Made by a program: the position numbers and the translations under genes. Below, piece by piece: positions 7,279 through 14,298 of a DNA stretch of 64,000 nt. The notes under the pieces were generated by a model. The model saw only the letters and a list, made by a program, of their open reading frames with translations. It made no database searches and was not told the origin of the DNA. Numbering within the stretch: position 1 is the stretch's first letter; every line of letters starts with the position of its first letter. Source of the DNA: Thiomicrorhabdus sediminis (GTDB taxonomy: Bacteria; Pseudomonadota; Gammaproteobacteria; Thiomicrospirales; Thiomicrospiraceae); NCBI RefSeq assembly GCF_005885815.1, contig NZ_CP040602.1, forward strand, positions 449,630-513,629, in the 5' to 3' direction.

Positions 7279-8370
7279 ATGGCAATTAAATGTGGAATTG
7301 TCGGTTTACCCAATGTTGGTAAATCAACCTTATTTAATGCACTGACCAATGCGGGAATTGAATCTGCAAACTACCCGTTCTGTACAATTGAGCCTAATGT
7401 TGGTGTCGTTCCGGTTCCTGATGCACGTGAACATGCCTTGGCCGAAATCGTTAATCCTGAACGAGTGTTGTCTGCGACAGTCGATTTTATGGATATCGCC
7501 GGTCTGGTTGAAGGCGCTTCTAAAGGTGAAGGTCTAGGTAATAAATTTCTGCAAAATATTCGTGAAACCGATGCCATTGTGCAGGTTGTTCGTTGTTTTG
7601 AAAATGACGATATTGTTCACGTTGCCGGTAAAGTTGATCCGATTTCGGATATTGAAATCATCAATATGGAACTGGTATTGGCAGATGCTGAGTCCTTGGA
7701 AAAGAATGCTCTGAAACAGCAAAAGCTGGGTAAAAGCGGTAATAAAGAAGCACAAGCCCGTCAAGCACTGTATGAGCGTGTTTTGAACGAAATTCAAGAC
7801 GGTAAGTTGATCCGTTTGGTTGATATGACCGATGACGAAAAATTGATGTTGCGTGATTTACAGCTCTTAACCATCAAACCAATGATGTATATCGCCAATG
7901 TTAATGAAGACGGTTTTGAAAATAATCCTCTGCTTGATAAAGTCAGAGAATTGGCGACGCAGCAGGGGGCGATAGTTGTACCTGTATGCGCGGCGATCGA
8001 ATCGGAAATCGCCGAACTGGACGATGAAGACAAAGCCGACTTCCTAGAAGAGATGGGCCAAGAAGAACCTGGTCTAAACCGAGTGATTCGTGCCGCCTAC
8101 GATCTTTTGGGATTACAGACATACTTTACCGCCGGAGTAAAGGAAGTCCGTGCCTGGACCGTTAAAAAAGGTGCCACAGCGCCACAAGCGGCCGGTGTTA
8201 TCCATACCGACTTCGAAAAGGGCTTTATTCGTGCCGAAGTTACCGCCTATGATGACTTTATCGCCTGTAAAGGGGATGCAGGAGCGAAAGCGGCAGGTAA
8301 GCAGCGTTTGGAAGGTAAAGAATATATCGTTCAAGACGGGGATGTCATGCATTTCCGCTTCAACGTCTAG
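7279..8370 (+). CDS. ychF: Redox-regulated ATPase YchF
   Basis: An Obg-family P-loop NTPase that binds ribosomes; E. coli YchF prefers ATP and modulates the oxidative-stress response. The 363 residues start with [17 protein letters not shown] (G1). The G3 is [16 protein letters not shown], and NVNED occupies the position of the usual guanine-specifying NKxD, which is the known basis of ATP preference in this family. A coiled-coil insert and a C-terminal TGS domain (from about residue 275, ending [13 protein letters not shown]) complete the protein. AGGAG precedes the ATG. It is the last gene before the accessory region. Confidence 0.96.
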
Positions 8371-8390
8371 AATTTGCTGGTTTTGAGCTT

Positions 8391-8607
8391 TTAGCTTCGC
8401 ATTACTGTGTCATGTAATGGTCACTTACTATTCGTAAGCTCACATTACATTCCTTGTGCTGCTTTGTTAAAAGGCTCAAACTCAAGCAAATTTAATTTTT
8501 TGATGCAGCACTATTCGGCGTTGTTAAATGGATACCTGCAATTTGCAGACTTACATTTAACTGCCTTGCCTAGCACTCCATCAGAGCGCTATAAGTTCTA
8601 AATTTAA
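8391..8607 (+). repeat. Structured direct repeat, copy 1
   Basis: First of two ~217-bp units set ~237 bp apart in the ychF to tRNA-Met gap. Several nested inverted repeats are visible. ATGTAATG...CATTACAT encloses CTTAC...GTAAG. GTGCTGC...GCAGCAC spans about 42 bases. GTTAAATG...CATTTAAC encloses CTGCA-ATT-TGCAG. AGCACTC pairs imperfectly with GAGCGCT. A ~64-codon open frame runs through it but has no sensible ribosome site, and I do not call it a gene. Possible identities are a MITE-like or other non-autonomous element or a structured RNA unit. Confidence 0.8.
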
Positions 8608-8627
8608 TTTTTCTATTTTTTGAATTC

Positions 8628-8843
8628 TTAGCTTTGTAATACAGTGTCATGTAATGGTCACTTACTATTCGTAAGCTCACATTACATTCCTTGTGCTGCT
8701 TTGTTAAAAGGCTCAAACTCAAGCAAATTTAATTTTTTGATGCAGCACTATTCAACGTTGTTAAGTGGACACCTGCAATTTGCAGGCTTACAGTCAGCGG
8801 CCTTACCTAGCACTCTATCGGAACGCTAGAAATTCTAAATTTA
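8628..8843 (+). repeat. Structured direct repeat, copy 2
   Basis: Second copy, nearly identical to the first over its 5' ~130 bases and diverging towards the 3' end. The outer arm of the third hairpin is degraded here (GTTAAGTG against CAGTCAGC), while the inner CTGCA/TGCAG stem is kept. The last hairpin is also weakened. The first two hairpins are identical in both copies. Confidence 0.8.
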
Positions 8844-8915: not shown

Positions 8916-8943
8916 TTGACATATTTCCCTAGCGTTCTATAAT
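8916..8943 (+). promoter_or_regulatory. Sigma-70 promoter for tRNA-Met
   Basis: TTGACA and TATAAT, both perfect consensus, are separated by 16 bases. The -10 box ends 13 bases before the mature tRNA 5' end. This is one of the strongest-looking promoters in the window. Confidence 0.85.
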
Positions 8944-8956
8944 ACGCGCACATTTT

Positions 8957-9033
8957 GGCTACATAGCTCAGCTGGTTAGAGCACATCACTCATAATGATG
9001 GGGTCCCAAGTTCGAATCTCGGTGTAGCCACCA
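8957..9033 (+). tRNA. tRNA-Met, elongator (anticodon CAU)
   Basis: A 77-base cloverleaf. Acceptor GGCTACA pairs with TGTAGCC, followed by A and encoded CCA; the anticodon loop is CTCATAA. The body, including ATCACTCATAATGAT, closely matches the E. coli elongator tRNA-Met, which argues against initiator Met and Ile2. The T stem (CCAAG/CTCGG) contains one A-C mismatch at its centre, which is unusual. The 3' end is the probable integration site of the adjacent integrase. Confidence 0.96.
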
Positions 9034-9214: not shown

Positions 9215-9259
9215 ACTTTTTCTGTTAATTTCACCTAAATTGGGTGTGTGGAGCAATAT

Positions 9260-10492
9260 ATGCCTTTGACTGATGTGGCGATTAGAAAAGCAAAGCCCAA
9301 TGGGAAAGTTCAGAAGTTATCTGATGGTAATGGATTAAGGCTGGAGATTTCGAAAGCTGGTAGTAAGATTTTCAAATATCGATTTAAGTTGCACGGCGGT
9401 GATTCAGACTTTGTAATTGGAGAGTATCCTCTCGTTAGTTTGGTTGAAGCAAGAAGATTGAGAGATGAGGCTAGAGTATTAGTTAAACAAGGTATTAATC
9501 CTACTGATTTTAGAAAACAGAAGCGAGCTGAAAAGAATGCTGAACTAGCGGAGCAGGTTGCTTCATCAGAGCTGATGACATTTCGACAGCTATATGAAGA
9601 ATTTTCAGAGTTTAAAACGACTTCTTTTGGTGATCGAGCCCCCGATTGGCAGCTAGATACTTTACATAAGCATAATCTACGATTTGAAAAGCATGTATTT
9701 CCAAGTCTGGGAGATAAACCAGTAGTTCATATCTCCGAGGATGATTTAGAAGATTGTTTACTGGCTATTCAAGAGCATGGAACCTTATCAAACCGAAATA
9801 AAATAAAGACAGTATTCAATATGCTGTTTAAGTATGCCAAAGGGAAAAGGTATATAAAGCGTGACACAGCTAAATATATCTCAGATGCTTTGTTCGTAAA
9901 GCATGAGGCTAAACACTATAAGCATGTTACGACACGTTCCGAACTAGAGGTTGTATTGCAAAAACTTGACGGATTGAAGGCAACATATGAGGTTCAGCAG
10001 TGTTTACGATTAGCATTGTTACTATTTACTAGGCCTGGTGAAACTGCGAAATTGAAGTGGTCAGAAGTTGATTTGGAAAGTAGGCAAATTATAAAAGAAC
10101 CTACGGTTATGAAAATGAAGCGTGGATTTGTTATCCCTTTGAGTAGACAGGCTCTATCGATTTTAGAAGATCTAATGCCATTAACTTCTCATACTGACTA
10201 TGTGTTTTATTCACCTTATGGTACTGGGAGATCAATTAGTACAGAGTCGTTAGGGAATGCCTTGAGAAGAAATGGTGTCGATGAAATTAACCCTCATGGA
10301 TTCCGACATACAGCTAGTACGGCACTGAATGAAATGGGCTTTGATGCGGAAGAAATAGAATTGCAGCTAAGTCATATTATCAAGGGAACTCGTGGTGTTT
10401 ATAACAAGGCAGAGAAATTAGTTCAACGTCACAAGTTGATGCAAGCTTGGGCTGATTATTTGGAAAGGTTGGTTGGCACTCAGGGTGATTAA
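9260..10492 (+). CDS. Tyrosine recombinase / integrase (P4-like)
   Basis: A site-specific recombinase expected to insert and excise the adjacent element at the tRNA-Met 3' end. The 410-residue protein has an N-terminal arm-binding domain of the DUF4102 type (MPLTDVAIRKAKPNGK...LSDGNGLRLEI), a SAM-like core-binding domain (about 105-205) and a C-terminal catalytic domain. Catalytic residues are visible: Arg in LFTRPGETAKLKW, His-x-x-Arg in NPHGFRHTA, His in LSHIIKG, and the nucleophilic Tyr in GVYNKAEK. ATG 9260 has GGAG six bases upstream; a GTG four codons earlier is less likely. It lies 226 bp from tRNA-Met in the same direction, the standard layout for a tRNA-targeted island, and appears intact. 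Confidence 0.93.
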   Translation: MPLTDVAIRKAKPNGKVQKLSDGNGLRLEISKAGSKIFKYRFKLHGGDSDFVIGEYPLVSLVEARRLRDEARVLVKQGINPTDFRKQKRAEKNAELAEQVASSELMTFRQLYEEFSEFKTTSFGDRAPDWQLDTLHKHNLRFEKHVFPSLGDKPVVHISEDDLEDCLLAIQEHGTLSNRNKIKTVFNMLFKYAKGKRYIKRDTAKYISDALFVKHEAKHYKHVTTRSELEVVLQKLDGLKATYEVQQCLRLALLLFTRPGETAKLKWSEVDLESRQIIKEPTVMKMKRGFVIPLSRQALSILEDLMPLTSHTDYVFYSPYGTGRSISTESLGNALRRNGVDEINPHGFRHTASTALNEMGFDAEEIELQLSHIIKGTRGVYNKAEKLVQRHKLMQAWADYLERLVGTQGD

Positions 10493-10591
10493 ATTGCTTT
10501 CGATCGAATCGGGGCGAGCCCATATGGTTTTCAGGTGTTAAAATAATTCCAACGAGACCTAATACATTTATTAATTAGAACCTAGTTTTAT

Positions 10592-11695
10592 ATGAAATCC
10601 GATAAAGTCAAACAGAACAAATACAAACTAATCGACCTTTTTGCTGGGGCTGGAGGATTAACTCTAGGCTTTACTGATGGGCGGTTTTCAGGGGAGTTTG
10701 AATGCATTTTTGGTGTGGATAATGACCCGGCAGCAGTGCTTACTCATAATGAAAATTTTGGGGACCACAGCATCTGTACAAATATTGAAGATTGGTTGGA
10801 TTCGGAGCCAAATATTCCAAGAGCTGATATTGTTGTCGGAGGCCCGCCATGTCAAGGCTTTAGCTTGCTGAATAAAAACCGAGAAGGAGATCAAAGGCGC
10901 GCACTATGGGAGCCTTTCATGGATGTCGTGGAACTTTCAGGAGCATCTGCTTTTGTAATTGAAAATGTGCAAGGTTTGCTTAAGTCTCCAGAGTTCAGTG
11001 ATATTGAGAAAAAAGCAATTGAGTTAGGGTTTCTTGTTAAGGCTAAGGTTCTCAATTCCGCTGACTATGGTGTTCCCCAAACACGTAAACGAACTATCAT
11101 AATTGGTTGTAAGCCTGCTAACGTTGAATCTATTTTAGATTTTCCCCCTAGCAAAACGCATTCGGCAACTCCTGAGTCGGATGGTCTATTGCCATGGAAA
11201 ACGGTATATGATGCAATTTCTGACTTACCTGACCCAGAGGGGACTTCTATAAGAAGGTGTGACCCTCCCTTGGATATTCACTTTGGTAGAAGCCCGACTG
11301 CAATTAGTTTAGAGCGATATAAAGCTGTACCTCCAGGAGGGAATAGGTTTGATCTGCAAAAAAATGCGCCTCATATAACACCTCAATGCTGGATTAAAAA
11401 GAAAAGTGGCGGGACGGATCTTTTTGGCAGGTTGTGGTGGGATCGACCTTCGGTGACAATTCGGACAGAGTTTTTTAAACCTGAGAAGGGGCGTTATCTT
11501 CATCCAGATAAGAACCGGCCTATTACCCATCGAGAGGCTGCTAGGTTGATGGGGTTTCCTGATGACTTCAAGTTTATGGGGTCTAAGATTCAAATTGCGC
11601 GTCAAATTGGAAATGCAGTACCTCCTCCCCTTGGAGGGGCAATTGCCAGTTATATGGCTGATTTATTGTCAAAGCATAAAAAGAAAGCAGCTTAA
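10592..11695 (+). CDS. DNA (cytosine-5) methyltransferase
   Basis: Transfers a methyl group from SAM to C5 of cytosine in a specific DNA sequence, protecting host DNA from the partner nuclease. The 367 residues carry the ordered family motifs: motif I LIDLFAGAGGLTLGF (about 13-27), motif IV GGPPCQGFS with the catalytic Cys at 87, motif VI ENVQGLL (124-130), motif VIII QTRKRTIIIG (163-172), and motifs IX/X REAARLMGFPDDF and QIGNAVPPPLG. The target-recognition region between VIII and IX is short (roughly 180-300), so the recognition site cannot be read from sequence. The HNH gene starts 20 bp downstream and vsr follows; the trio forms a restriction-modification unit. It appears intact. Confidence 0.95.
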   Translation: MKSDKVKQNKYKLIDLFAGAGGLTLGFTDGRFSGEFECIFGVDNDPAAVLTHNENFGDHSICTNIEDWLDSEPNIPRADIVVGGPPCQGFSLLNKNREGDQRRALWEPFMDVVELSGASAFVIENVQGLLKSPEFSDIEKKAIELGFLVKAKVLNSADYGVPQTRKRTIIIGCKPANVESILDFPPSKTHSATPESDGLLPWKTVYDAISDLPDPEGTSIRRCDPPLDIHFGRSPTAISLERYKAVPPGGNRFDLQKNAPHITPQCWIKKKSGGTDLFGRLWWDRPSVTIRTEFFKPEKGRYLHPDKNRPITHREAARLMGFPDDFKFMGSKIQIARQIGNAVPPPLGGAIASYMADLLSKHKKKAA

Positions 11696-11715
11696 TTTCA
11701 GTAAAGGTTTTTTTA

Positions 11716-12669
11716 GTGGCAAGACGTTCACAACAGTCAAATCCAGAGCAGCTTAGAATTCAACTGATTACTCTTCTAGAGAATTTTGAATCAGAGCTGA
11801 AAAATGAAGATCTTCGGTCCCAAGTGATTGAGTTGGTGCCAGCCTATCGTCTTTTATATGATCTAGGAAGTTCACTTGTAACTGAAAATATACCTGCTGC
11901 TAGGGATAGAATAATCTACTATTTAAAAAAGTATCCGCTCACTATTATCAATGGTGAAGAAATAATGGTTGTCGCTGGTATAAGCGAGTGGGCACGACGC
12001 GTTCGAGAACTTCGTGTTCAACTTGGCTGGAGTATTATCACAGGTGTGAGTGCACTGGAAATGGCGAATGAGGGTGATTTAGAGATTGAAGGGCTGGATG
12101 TTTCAACTATGAAGCCTGATCAATATATGCTGATTAATACTGAGCAAGACAGGGAAGCCGCTCATAGATGGAATGTTGCCAATGGCATTAGAAAAGAAAA
12201 AAATATTTCTGTGCAAGAAAAACTTTTAAAGTTTTTACGTGAGAATGTAGGGAGGCCTGTAACAGGAGAAGAATTACGTTATGTTGCAGGTGATAAGTCA
12301 GAGTGGGCTAGAAGGGTCAGGGAGCTACGAACTGAACAAGGATGGCCAATAATAACAAAACAAACTGGAATGCCTGAATTGCCTGTTGGGACATACTTTC
12401 TGGAACTTGATAGGCAAGCACCTGTTCATGATCGGAAAATACCGGATTCAGTAAGAGGGAAAGTTTTACGTAGAGATGAGTTTACGTGCAAAAGCTGCGG
12501 CTGGAAGATTGATGATTACAATCGGGCAGACCCAAGAATTTTAGAGCTTCATCATAAAGTGCATCATGCAGCTGGAGGGGAAAATACAGAGGAAAACCTT
12601 ATAACTTTGTGCAATATCTGTCATGACAAGCTGCATGCCGAAGAAAATCGTAAGAAAAATGGCCGATAA
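11716..12669 (+). CDS. HNH endonuclease with duplicated DNA-binding module (probable type II restriction enzyme)
   Basis: Probable restriction nuclease paired with the upstream methyltransferase. The HNH domain occupies about residues 244-310: CKSC (258-261), LELHHKVHH (277-284), and CNICHDKLH (299-307), giving a two-CxxC zinc-ribbon HNH fold with the catalytic His region. Ahead of it are two copies of a ~50-residue unit, at about 61-110 and 165-215. Each ends in the near-identical string SEWARRVRELR followed by a GW(S/P)IIT turn. The shape suggests a winged helix with an Arg-rich recognition helix, but that is my inference. Residues 1-60 look helical. The start is GTG at 11716 with AAAGG upstream. 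It overlaps vsr by 11 bp. No DNA specificity is claimed. Confidence 0.8.
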   Translation: MARRSQQSNPEQLRIQLITLLENFESELKNEDLRSQVIELVPAYRLLYDLGSSLVTENIPAARDRIIYYLKKYPLTIINGEEIMVVAGISEWARRVRELRVQLGWSIITGVSALEMANEGDLEIEGLDVSTMKPDQYMLINTEQDREAAHRWNVANGIRKEKNISVQEKLLKFLRENVGRPVTGEELRYVAGDKSEWARRVRELRTEQGWPIITKQTGMPELPVGTYFLELDRQAPVHDRKIPDSVRGKVLRRDEFTCKSCGWKIDDYNRADPRILELHHKVHHAAGGENTEENLITLCNICHDKLHAEENRKKNGR

Positions 12670-13080
12670 CCTTACCCTGGAACAACGAAAGTTATGTATG
12701 TTTCGTGTTAAAAGCAAGGATACAAAGCCTGAGTTGAAGTTAAGAAAAGCTCTTTGGAGAAAGGGGTTTAGATATAGGTTGAATTACAACCTTCCAGGAA
12801 AGCCAGACTTGGTATTTGTCAAAGCTAAATAGCTATTTTTGTAGACGGATGCTTTTGGCATGGGTGCCCTATTCATGGTTTCATTCCAAAGAGTAATCGT
12901 GAGTTTTGGAATAAAAAAATCAAGAAGAATATTGAAAGAGATGCCGATGTTACCAATAAGTTGCAAAAGTCAGGTTGGGTAGTGCTGCGTTTTTGGACTC
13001 ATGAGTTAAAGGGAAGCTTTGATTCTGTCCTCCTAAGAATTGAGAATGCAATGCAGTATTCTATTCAAAGTCGCAGTTAG
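12659..13080 (+). pseudogene. vsr: Very short patch repair endonuclease, frameshifted
   Basis: Vsr nicks DNA at T:G mismatches created by deamination of 5-methylcytosine, offsetting the mutagenic effect of a C5 methyltransferase. Frame 1 reads MADNLTLEQRKLC through GKPDLVFVKAK and then hits TAG at 12830-12832. Adding one A to the AAA at 12827-12829 restores a continuous reading through FVDGCFWHGCPIHG, REFWNKKI and WVVLRFWTHEL to TAG at 13078-13080, giving a normal ~140-residue Vsr. All recognisable catalytic motifs are present across the two frames, so this is a recent single-base deletion or a homopolymer sequencing error. The start overlaps the end of the HNH gene, indicating translational coupling. 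Confidence 0.88.
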
Positions 13081-13106
13081 ATATGATTTATAAAAATCAT
13101 ATCTAA
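13077..13106. repeat. Perfect 13-bp inverted repeat after vsr
   Basis: TTAGATATGATTT and AAATCATATCTAA are exactly complementary around a 4-base loop, starting inside the vsr stop codon. No T-run follows on either strand in the position needed for an intrinsic terminator, so its role is open; it may stabilise the 3' end of the restriction-modification transcript. Confidence 0.6.
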
Positions 13107-13143
13107 GTAAAAAAATCCCTTCGTCTGGTAAGGCCTGAATTTA

Positions 13144-14029
13144 CTAGCCACTTTTTTGATTCTCAAAATACTGCTTTTCAAACTGCACCGGTGAGATACG
13201 GTCATGATAAGTGTGTCGCCGTTTAGGATTGTAAAACATCTCAATGTAATGAAACACTTCTTGTTTCGCTTCGGCTAAAGATTTGAACACTCTCCGTTGT
13301 ATTTTTTCTTTCTTCAAATTACTGAAAAAGCTTTCAGCCACAGCATTGTCCCAACAATTCCCTCGACGACTCATACTCGCTTCGATATTAAGTGTTTCGA
13401 GTAGTTTTTGGCTATTACGAGACGTGTATTGCGATCCCTGATCTGAATGCGGGTTGACGGTCCTTTGCGGTTTTCTGCGAGAATACGCCATCGTGATAGC
13501 AGCAAGCGTTAAATCTTCGGTCATAAGATGACTCATTGACCAACCGATGATTTTTGGTGAAAACAAGTCCATTACAACCGCTAAGAATAAGAAGCCTTCT
13601 TGAGTTTTGATATAAGTGATATCTCTCACCCACCAATGATTCGGTTGCTGTACTTCAAACTCACGATTTAACCGATTCTCTGCAAGATGATGTACGGTTC
13701 CACCGTACATACCTTTTGGCTTGTTATAACCGCGATTAGCCTTAATGCCTGCTGATTGCATTAATCGCAGTACTCGGTCACGACCACAATTATATTTTAG
13801 CTTCGACCAGGTCTAAGTGAATGTTACGGTAACCGTAATAACAACCGCTTTCTAGCCAAAATTGCTTGATGGCCGTAAGTAGCCTTTTATCGTCCTTATC
13901 ACGCTGACTTAACGGCTCTTTGAGCCATTGATAATAGCCGCTTGGGTGTACCGATAAAGCTGAACACAAAATTCGAACAGGGTAGTTCTGCTGACGAGTT
14001 TTTATGAAGGCGTATCGTTCTTTGACTCG
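13144..14029 (-). pseudogene. IS3-family transposase OrfB, frameshifted
   Basis: DDE-type integrase subunit of the IS3-family transposase. The 5' part reads in the -1 frame of orfA (RYAFIKTRQQNYPVRILC, then SVHPSGYYQWLK and GYRNIHLDLVEAK) and meets TAA at once after an AAAA run at 13795-13798. Deleting one A from that run joins it to the 205-codon downstream part, which carries RDITYIKTQEG, SDQGSQYTS and WDNAVAESFFSNLKKE, i.e. the three DDE blocks. The single-base insertion therefore splits orfB. The exact 5' limit is nominal because OrfB is normally made by programmed frameshifting from orfA. Confidence 0.88.
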
Positions 14030-14298
14030 TTGGCAAAGAACCGCGCGGCCTCCTTTAATATGTCACGCTCCTGTTCTGCACGCTTTAATTGCTTTTTAAG
14101 TCGGGCAATCTCAGTTTGCATATCATCTTGTTCTTGGCGTTTTTTAGGTGGCTGAGAAAAAGTTTTTAGCCAGTAATAAAGTGTTTTAGTTGAGATGCCG
14201 AGTCGTTCCGCCACTTCGGCAACTGGATAATTATGGTGGGTAACTTGATTAACTGCTTCTTGCTTAAACTCTTCTGAATAACGAATGCCTTTGGCCAT
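14002..14298 (-). CDS. IS3-family transposase OrfA
   Basis: The 98-residue DNA-binding subunit recognises the IS ends. An N-terminal helix-turn-helix (YSEEFKQEAVNQV through VAERLGISTKTLYYWLK) is followed by a leucine-zipper-like coiled coil (MQTEIARLKKQLKRAEQERD) and the usual ILKEAARFFA tail, over which orfB begins in the -1 frame. It looks intact, but without a working OrfB it may act only as an inhibitor or regulator of related copies. Confidence 0.9.
   Translation of the reverse strand: MAKGIRYSEEFKQEAVNQVTHHNYPVAEVAERLGISTKTLYYWLKTFSQPPKKRQEQDDMQTEIARLKKQLKRAEQERDILKEAARFFANESKNDTPS

Follow-up and report, generated by a model that had tools for sequence, protein, structure and literature searches.

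An array of ERIC-like palindromic elements behind ychF in Thiomicrorhabdus sediminis and its apparently mobile relatives

Between a gene that we take to be ychF, encoding an Obg-like GTPase, and a tRNA-Met gene, the window analysed here (a stretch of 64,000 nucleotides from Thiomicrorhabdus sediminis) carries a tandem repeat with several inverted repeats. What kind of sequence is this repeat, and why does it lie directly behind such a gene? Self-comparison of the window gave two copies of 226 nt with 90% identity and a start-to-start distance of 237 nt (Table 1), which bears out the near-identical units of about 237 bp described in the initial annotation. The inverted repeats named there are present, among them ATGTAATG/CATTACAT at 8412-8450 and GTTAAATG/CATTTAAC, enclosing CTGCA/TGCAG, near 8523-8561. 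The copies differ at 22 positions, of which 7 fall in the first 26 nt, none in the following 110 nt (8407-8516 in copy 1, 8644-8753 in copy 2) and 15 in the last 90 nt. The earlier description of copy 2, with its first two hairpins intact and the later ones decayed, holds for the centre and the last part, but the start has changed as well. Gene conversion or homogenisation between the copies is the probable source of the identical centre.

A single unit folds better than its shuffled versions on the plus strand (z = -4.06, 1 of 200 shuffles as good) and on the minus strand (z = -4.74, 0 of 200). It is nevertheless two adjacent elements on the minus strand and not the single nested structure first proposed, and the GTGCTGC/GCAGCAC pairing bridges the arms of the two neighbours. 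Read on the minus strand, the first hairpin is AATGTGAGCTTAC..GTAAGTGACCATT, with a centre identical to the core of ERIC repeats. A frame of 64 amino acids (8407-8601) had no Pfam match and may be read as a by-product of the element; reading frames on the reverse strand of ERIC are also known, according to the available part of PMC2759123. An Rfam scan of the window returned tRNA only, the best other match having an E value of 0.68 at a permissive threshold.

Table 1. Features in and around the array, numbered from the first letter of the window.
Feature	Position	Strand	Basis
ychF, stop codon 5' of the array	7279..8370	+	ORF; site traced in relatives
Copy 1 of the tandem unit (elements B1 and A1)	8381..8606	-	Self-comparison of the window and covariance model R1
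Element B1, ERIC-like core GAGCTTAC..GTAAGTGA	8389..8473	-	Model R1, 66.5 bits
Core hairpin of B1 (outer stem 8, inner stem 5, internal loop)	8412..8450	-	Folding and core pattern search
Element A1, inner stem altered to CTGCA/TGCAG, pairing intact	8500..8585	-	Model R1, 51.7 bits
Copy 2 of the tandem unit (elements B2 and A2)	8618..8843	-	Self-comparison of the window and covariance model R1
Element B2	8626..8710	-	Model R1, 58.3 bits
Element A2	8737..8822	-	Model R1, 38.9 bits
Consensus sigma-70-like promoter (perfect match) ahead of tRNA-Met; array upstream of the promoter	8916..8943	+	
tRNA-Met	8957..9033	+	

A similarity search with the unit showed that it is not confined to this site. 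The first hairpin alone recurs, at three further places in the same genome and as short matches in 9 of 57 other genomes, every one a member of this genus (counting the window's genome too, 10 of 58); the exact 237-nt unit was found nowhere else, and plasmid and phage records gave no match. The window has two occurrences of the core pattern GAGCTTACN{2,7}GTAAGTGA, against none in 100 shuffles of it, and the pattern was present in 12 of 32 genus genomes, with no occurrence for the reversed control. Contigs that matched it (15 stretches) came from Thiomicrorhabdus, Cocleimonas, Thiotrichaceae, gammaproteobacterial assemblies and one Bacteroidales assembly. The covariance model R1 was built from 25 of the 31 collected elements, aligned with plain MAFFT and not fitted to structure; the two window copies were held out, and L028, L049 and one copy each of L010 and L050 (rearranged-looking) were also omitted. 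The model finds four elements in the held-out window, and the 237-bp unit is therefore a duplicated pair. At E<=1.6e-5 the whole genome contains 14 elements; there is also an antisense echo (E 0.6), and two weaker elements (29.1 and 26.6 bits) lie next to its purD copy. Elements were found in all 32 genus genomes, with the top 141 candidates per genome scored, and, with the best 16 candidates per genome, at E<=1e-4 in at least 31 of 274 sampled gammaproteobacterial genomes and at least 27 of 221 genera; one high-copy genome, G029, gave 37 matches. The array is thus four copies of one ERIC-like palindromic family that is widespread in Gammaproteobacteria. Arrays also occur at places other than ychF, as in G006, where four model matches, three of them weak, lie within about 510 nt (L182:3316-3829).

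Covariation indicates that the fold itself has been conserved. In the 25-element alignment, where the inner stem was fixed by the seed pattern, 20 of 27 pairs have changed on both sides, and the covariation score was 0.509 against 0.168 for shuffled alignments (0 of 500 as high) and at most 0.138 for slid ones, controls that ignore kinship. For a second alignment of 17 elements, made up of 14 from the own genome and three that relatives carry at ychF, the score was 0.706 against 0.228 shuffled, again with controls that ignore kinship. In this alignment the inner stem covaries as well (GCTTAC/GTAAGT, GTTTAC/GTAAAC, GCGTAT/ATACGT, CTGCA/TGCAG). The best-conserved letters are those of the non-complementary internal loops, CAAGGC and AACGC. 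Covarying stems with conserved loops have the look of a constrained fold, and the stems appear to have evolved by compensation. The initial annotation's structured RNA is supported to this extent, and by the fixed orientation after stop codons described below, and an RNA form of the element is predicted from these features. A unit present only here and free of compensatory changes would have been a simple local duplication; this one both recurs and compensates, above shuffle controls that ignore kinship. Chance duplication of AT-rich intergenic DNA without wider meaning, to which the uniqueness of the exact 237-nt unit might point, is refuted by the four held-out model matches in the window, the 14 in the genome and those in at least 31 of 274 class genomes, and its probability is negligible.

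ERIC repeats, known since 1990-91, are in wide use for strain typing. The present family shares with ERIC (also IRU or RU-1; 127 bp, Enterobacteriaceae and Vibrionaceae) the core GAGCTTAC-N-GTAAGTGA, a long palindrome, intergenic position and many copies, and in two E. coli copies (L052 and L053) AAGGC and AACGC flank the core in the same order. The ERIC core hairpin is found in B1 and B2; in A1 and A2 the inner stem differs with its pairing kept. In contrast to ERIC, young family members end in GTAAC..GTTAC, stems and arms differ, and model R1 agrees with E. coli ERIC over the core only (24.3 bits) and not across the 127-bp consensus. Young relatives of the window elements duplicate 8 bp, unlike ERIC, whose insertion is described with a TA duplication in the available parts of PMC2759123 and PMC2229807, and the host range differs from Enterobacteriaceae and Vibrionaceae, taking in Thiomicrorhabdus and at least 31 of 274 class genomes. 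The family is therefore called ERIC-like and not ERIC. PMC10969869, in the part available, cites Zo 2011 on ERIC among Gammaproteobacteria. The literature as seen in part, with Zo 2011 outside the comparison, contained no report of an IS66 link or of the family in Thiomicrorhabdus. The E. coli ERIC copy L053:109-232 matches Rfam V_AS5 (Vibrio RNA AS5) over its full length with 46.4 bits, below the gathering score of 96; V_AS5 thus seems to be an ERIC, and the window elements gave no match to it. The RUP elements of Streptococcus and the Correia/NEMIS elements of Neisseria are likewise small palindromic MITEs that fold in mRNA; they differ in their TA targets, and no common sequence was noted. 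For RUP, an IS partner was deduced from common ends, as stated in the available part of PMC2229807.

Copies were divided into old and young on copy number and divergence, a division of our own. The young ones carry the marks of transposition. The 42 elements from G029, G011 and G016 are most often 121 nt long and have GTAAC..GTTAC as termini, and high-copy relatives measure 121 bp, or 152 bp with a 31-bp leader. The flanking 8 bases are identical in 10 of the 42 (shuffled mean 0.23, maximum 3), while 9 bases are identical in none. Among 33 elements of other genera, being the rows judged high-copy or well preserved out of 51 (the other 18 were left out), the 8-bp flanks are exact in 13 and agree at 7 or more of 8 positions in 19 (shuffled means 0.40 and 0.62), where the leader, which starts like GTAACT, is counted as part of the element. 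For three insertions in G029 the corresponding places in relatives are without the element, although some of these alignments are ragged. A TA duplication, expected from ERIC and first noted on G029, was discarded since the 8-mers outside GTAAC/GTTAC are identical. Other members of the family have thus spread recently in other genomes with 8-bp target duplications. The MITE-like nature proposed at the outset holds for the family, which is present in many copies with terminal inverted repeats, duplicates 8 bp of its target and has empty sites in relatives. The family, its structure and the mobility of the relatives, taken jointly, we regard as highly probable. The window copies have diverged ends without a recognisable GTAAC, and no target duplication was seen; that they were once mobile themselves we infer from these relatives.

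The ends also point to a partner. IS66 elements start with GTAA and duplicate 8 bp. Single-frame IS66-family elements and their MITEs resemble the high-copy relatives in GTAA ends and 8-bp duplication, and IS66-like elements with matching ends occur in the genus and in G246. One of them (L242 in G022) is 1711 bp long; its 14-bp ends, GTAACTACTCAGCG, are perfect, and its one long frame coincides in position with a match to PF03050, the IS66 transposase family (5.5e-47). The flanks of this best-matching IS are not identical, and no target duplication was seen. Another (L243 in G001) has 2050 bp, ends GTAACTTCTCAATAAG and flanks that match at 7 of 8 positions. A fragment of an IS66 element in G246 was located some 750 nt away from GTAACTATTCAGC, the terminus of this genome's own elements. 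PF03050 genes were found in 7 of 32 genus genomes, and 7 of 9 class genomes searched were positive for IS66, with an element-like end in G246 only; the search of G214 gave related ends GTAACTACTCACCCC. The IS66 copies examined in G024 were rejected as a partner because their ends differ (GTAAGCG, GTAACCG); exact 8-bp duplications were seen at 3 of the 5 loci tested there. A pattern search of G029 for an autonomous partner gave no complete end pair at IS distance in an assembly that is 79% complete; the candidate partners came instead from the search for IS66 transposases. Since terminal repeats are common to the elements and the IS66-like elements, and the duplications are of the same length, it is strongly suggested that the elements elsewhere are non-autonomous passengers (MITEs) of IS66-family transposases, and we consider a partner of IS66 type likely. 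Unlike in IS66-family MITEs, the interior is a conserved structured hairpin and not IS-derived, the own genome offers no partner and the window copies are without recognisable ends. The PF03050 search of the window's genome found no IS66 transposase, and hence the family looks immobile there. In L155, L251 and L285-L297 the 31-bp leader of high-copy elements is a repeat of the terminal sequence. Very small solo units, in which two ends are joined, also exist among these loci; leaders and solo units are perhaps derivatives of IS66 ends.

The old copies follow a rule of position. At 10 of 11 sites in the own genome the elements lie 4-67 nt past a stop codon with the model strand antisense to the gene. 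The genes, identified by family matches except for ychF, are ychF, ileS, lipoamide dehydrogenase, dnaK, purB, an FKBP isomerase, atpC, gapA, fabI and one without a family match; the eleventh site, between purH and purD, is an exception, and L047 breaks the rule as well. The distance from stop codon to model edge is mostly 18-22 nt (19 nt for B1 behind ychF), so that the outer arm begins at the stop codon. A script with its own gene calling counted 11 antisense and 4 sense (3 of them both) among 13 rows of the own genome, in which the four window elements form one row, and 19 antisense and 0 sense among 22 genus rows. With orthologues merged by eye, elements in the antisense orientation stand at 13 distinct genes, namely the ten just listed, purH and those of L034 and L040, and no gene has them in the other sense only; a two-sided sign test by hand gave about 2.4e-4 for a rule that was noticed in the same data. 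The low-copy, diverged members in Thiomicrorhabdus, window copies included, thus stand just past stop codons in one orientation. The rule is followed at 6 of 7 sites in G172, from another family, where one gene is presumably groEL by its C-terminus. The bias is weak in the high-copy G029 set (28 antisense, 15 sense and 10 both of 42) and absent in other gammaproteobacteria (27 antisense, 22 sense and 11 both of 51, G172 rows included). This looks like selective retention rather than a choice of target.

At ychF itself, elements are present in 8 of 30 genomes (loci of 30 of 31 ychF-bearing genomes), and the carriers sit on several separate branches of a ychF tree made from 29 of the 30 loci, G005 being too short. 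Given this scatter, the element is dispensable there. In G008 complementary arms without the core hairpin follow ychF (L082), the deletion remnant of an element; on the tree this genome stands next to G009 (89/83). Together with the patchy carriers, this remnant indicates that elements came and went at ychF. A short palindrome, ACCAGGCCTGGT, with partial forms, also recurs in intergenic DNA of the genus, near ychF in L077, L078, L080, L081, L083, L084 and L089.

How the old copies came to be kept can be explained in different ways. They may be neutral remnants, persisting where an insertion is harmless, just past stop codons, with arms kept complementary by template switching during replication and without function. 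Palindromes self-correct, and the patchiness at ychF, the scattered carriers and the arms without core in G008 all suit such a history. Correction should, however, erase the non-complementary internal loops, yet these hold the most conserved letters, and such a history leaves unexplained why 13 distinct genes show one orientation and none the other, because both ends of a young element are alike. We therefore consider neutral persistence unlikely. The array could also be a purely structural 3'-UTR element, an exonuclease barrier or terminator-like hairpin unrelated to ERIC, with convergence in the core and the mobile relatives as a side branch. Fixed orientation and position would suit any 3'-UTR hairpin, and E. 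coli ERIC does match the model in the core only. Against this, two E. coli ERIC copies have AAGGC and AACGC in the same order, and the high-copy relatives with target duplications match the loops and arms of the old copies at full model length. The core hairpins also have no T-run on their 3' side and so are not intrinsic terminators; the sole terminator-like call in the array falls on the short inner stem of A1, where the tail is weak. An origin unrelated to ERIC is accordingly rather improbable.

The reading that we prefer, at a probability of roughly 60%, is that these mobile elements belong to an ERIC-like superfamily, that IS66-type transposases move them elsewhere and that they are kept here as 3'-UTR hairpins. 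The ychF array would have grown by local duplication of an element pair, its centre of 110 nt being homogenised between the copies. The mRNAs of ychF, dnaK, gapA, atpC, fabI, ileS and other genes would then start their 3'-UTR with a long hairpin, and this hairpin may couple translation termination to transcript stability, for which the element would be retained. The analogy is with Yersinia ERIC, where, as far as the available part of PMC2229807 goes, the effect on upstream transcripts depends on orientation and on the ribosome, and the reported mechanism is that a ribosome on the upstream gene exposes an RNase E site. By this analogy a translation-coupled role can be put forward tentatively, with a plain 3' stabilising hairpin as a close alternative. 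A wider proposal, which we find doubtful, is that ERIC belongs to a gammaproteobacteria-wide superfamily of hairpins whose mobile members ride IS66-family transposases, and that several host families have repeatedly domesticated single copies at the stop codons of household genes, in one orientation, as translation-coupled 3'-UTR control elements. If true, it would give a lead on the machinery that mobilises ERIC-type repeats now or did so in the past. The origin of such repeats would become testable through a related family that still looks mobile elsewhere, given its defined 8-bp duplication and its candidate transposase, and the stop-codon rule would allow domesticated hairpins linking translation to mRNA decay to be tested in many genes together.

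The array's surroundings had suggested two further ideas. A folded site with a tyrosine recombinase nearby recalls an attC-like recombination site served by the neighbouring integrase. That enzyme, however, has an Arm-DNA-bind_3 domain and sits beyond the tRNA, neither an integron integrase nor a cassette array was identified, and elements are dispersed singly after household genes such as dnaK, gapA and atpC. G010, G012 and G024 moreover show an integrase-like start (by eye) after the tRNA with no element at ychF, and we consider an attC-like site hardly conceivable. Several relatives without the array likewise have integrase-like genes, by eye, after the same tRNA, so the tRNA integration hotspot emphasised in the initial annotation appears incidental to the repeat. 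Beyond tRNA-Met, at 9248-14298, lies a small genomic island, in which the tyrosine integrase (Arm-DNA-bind_3) is followed by genes that resemble, by eye, those for a cytosine methyltransferase and an HNH protein, then by a short frame like Vsr and a pair like that of IS3.
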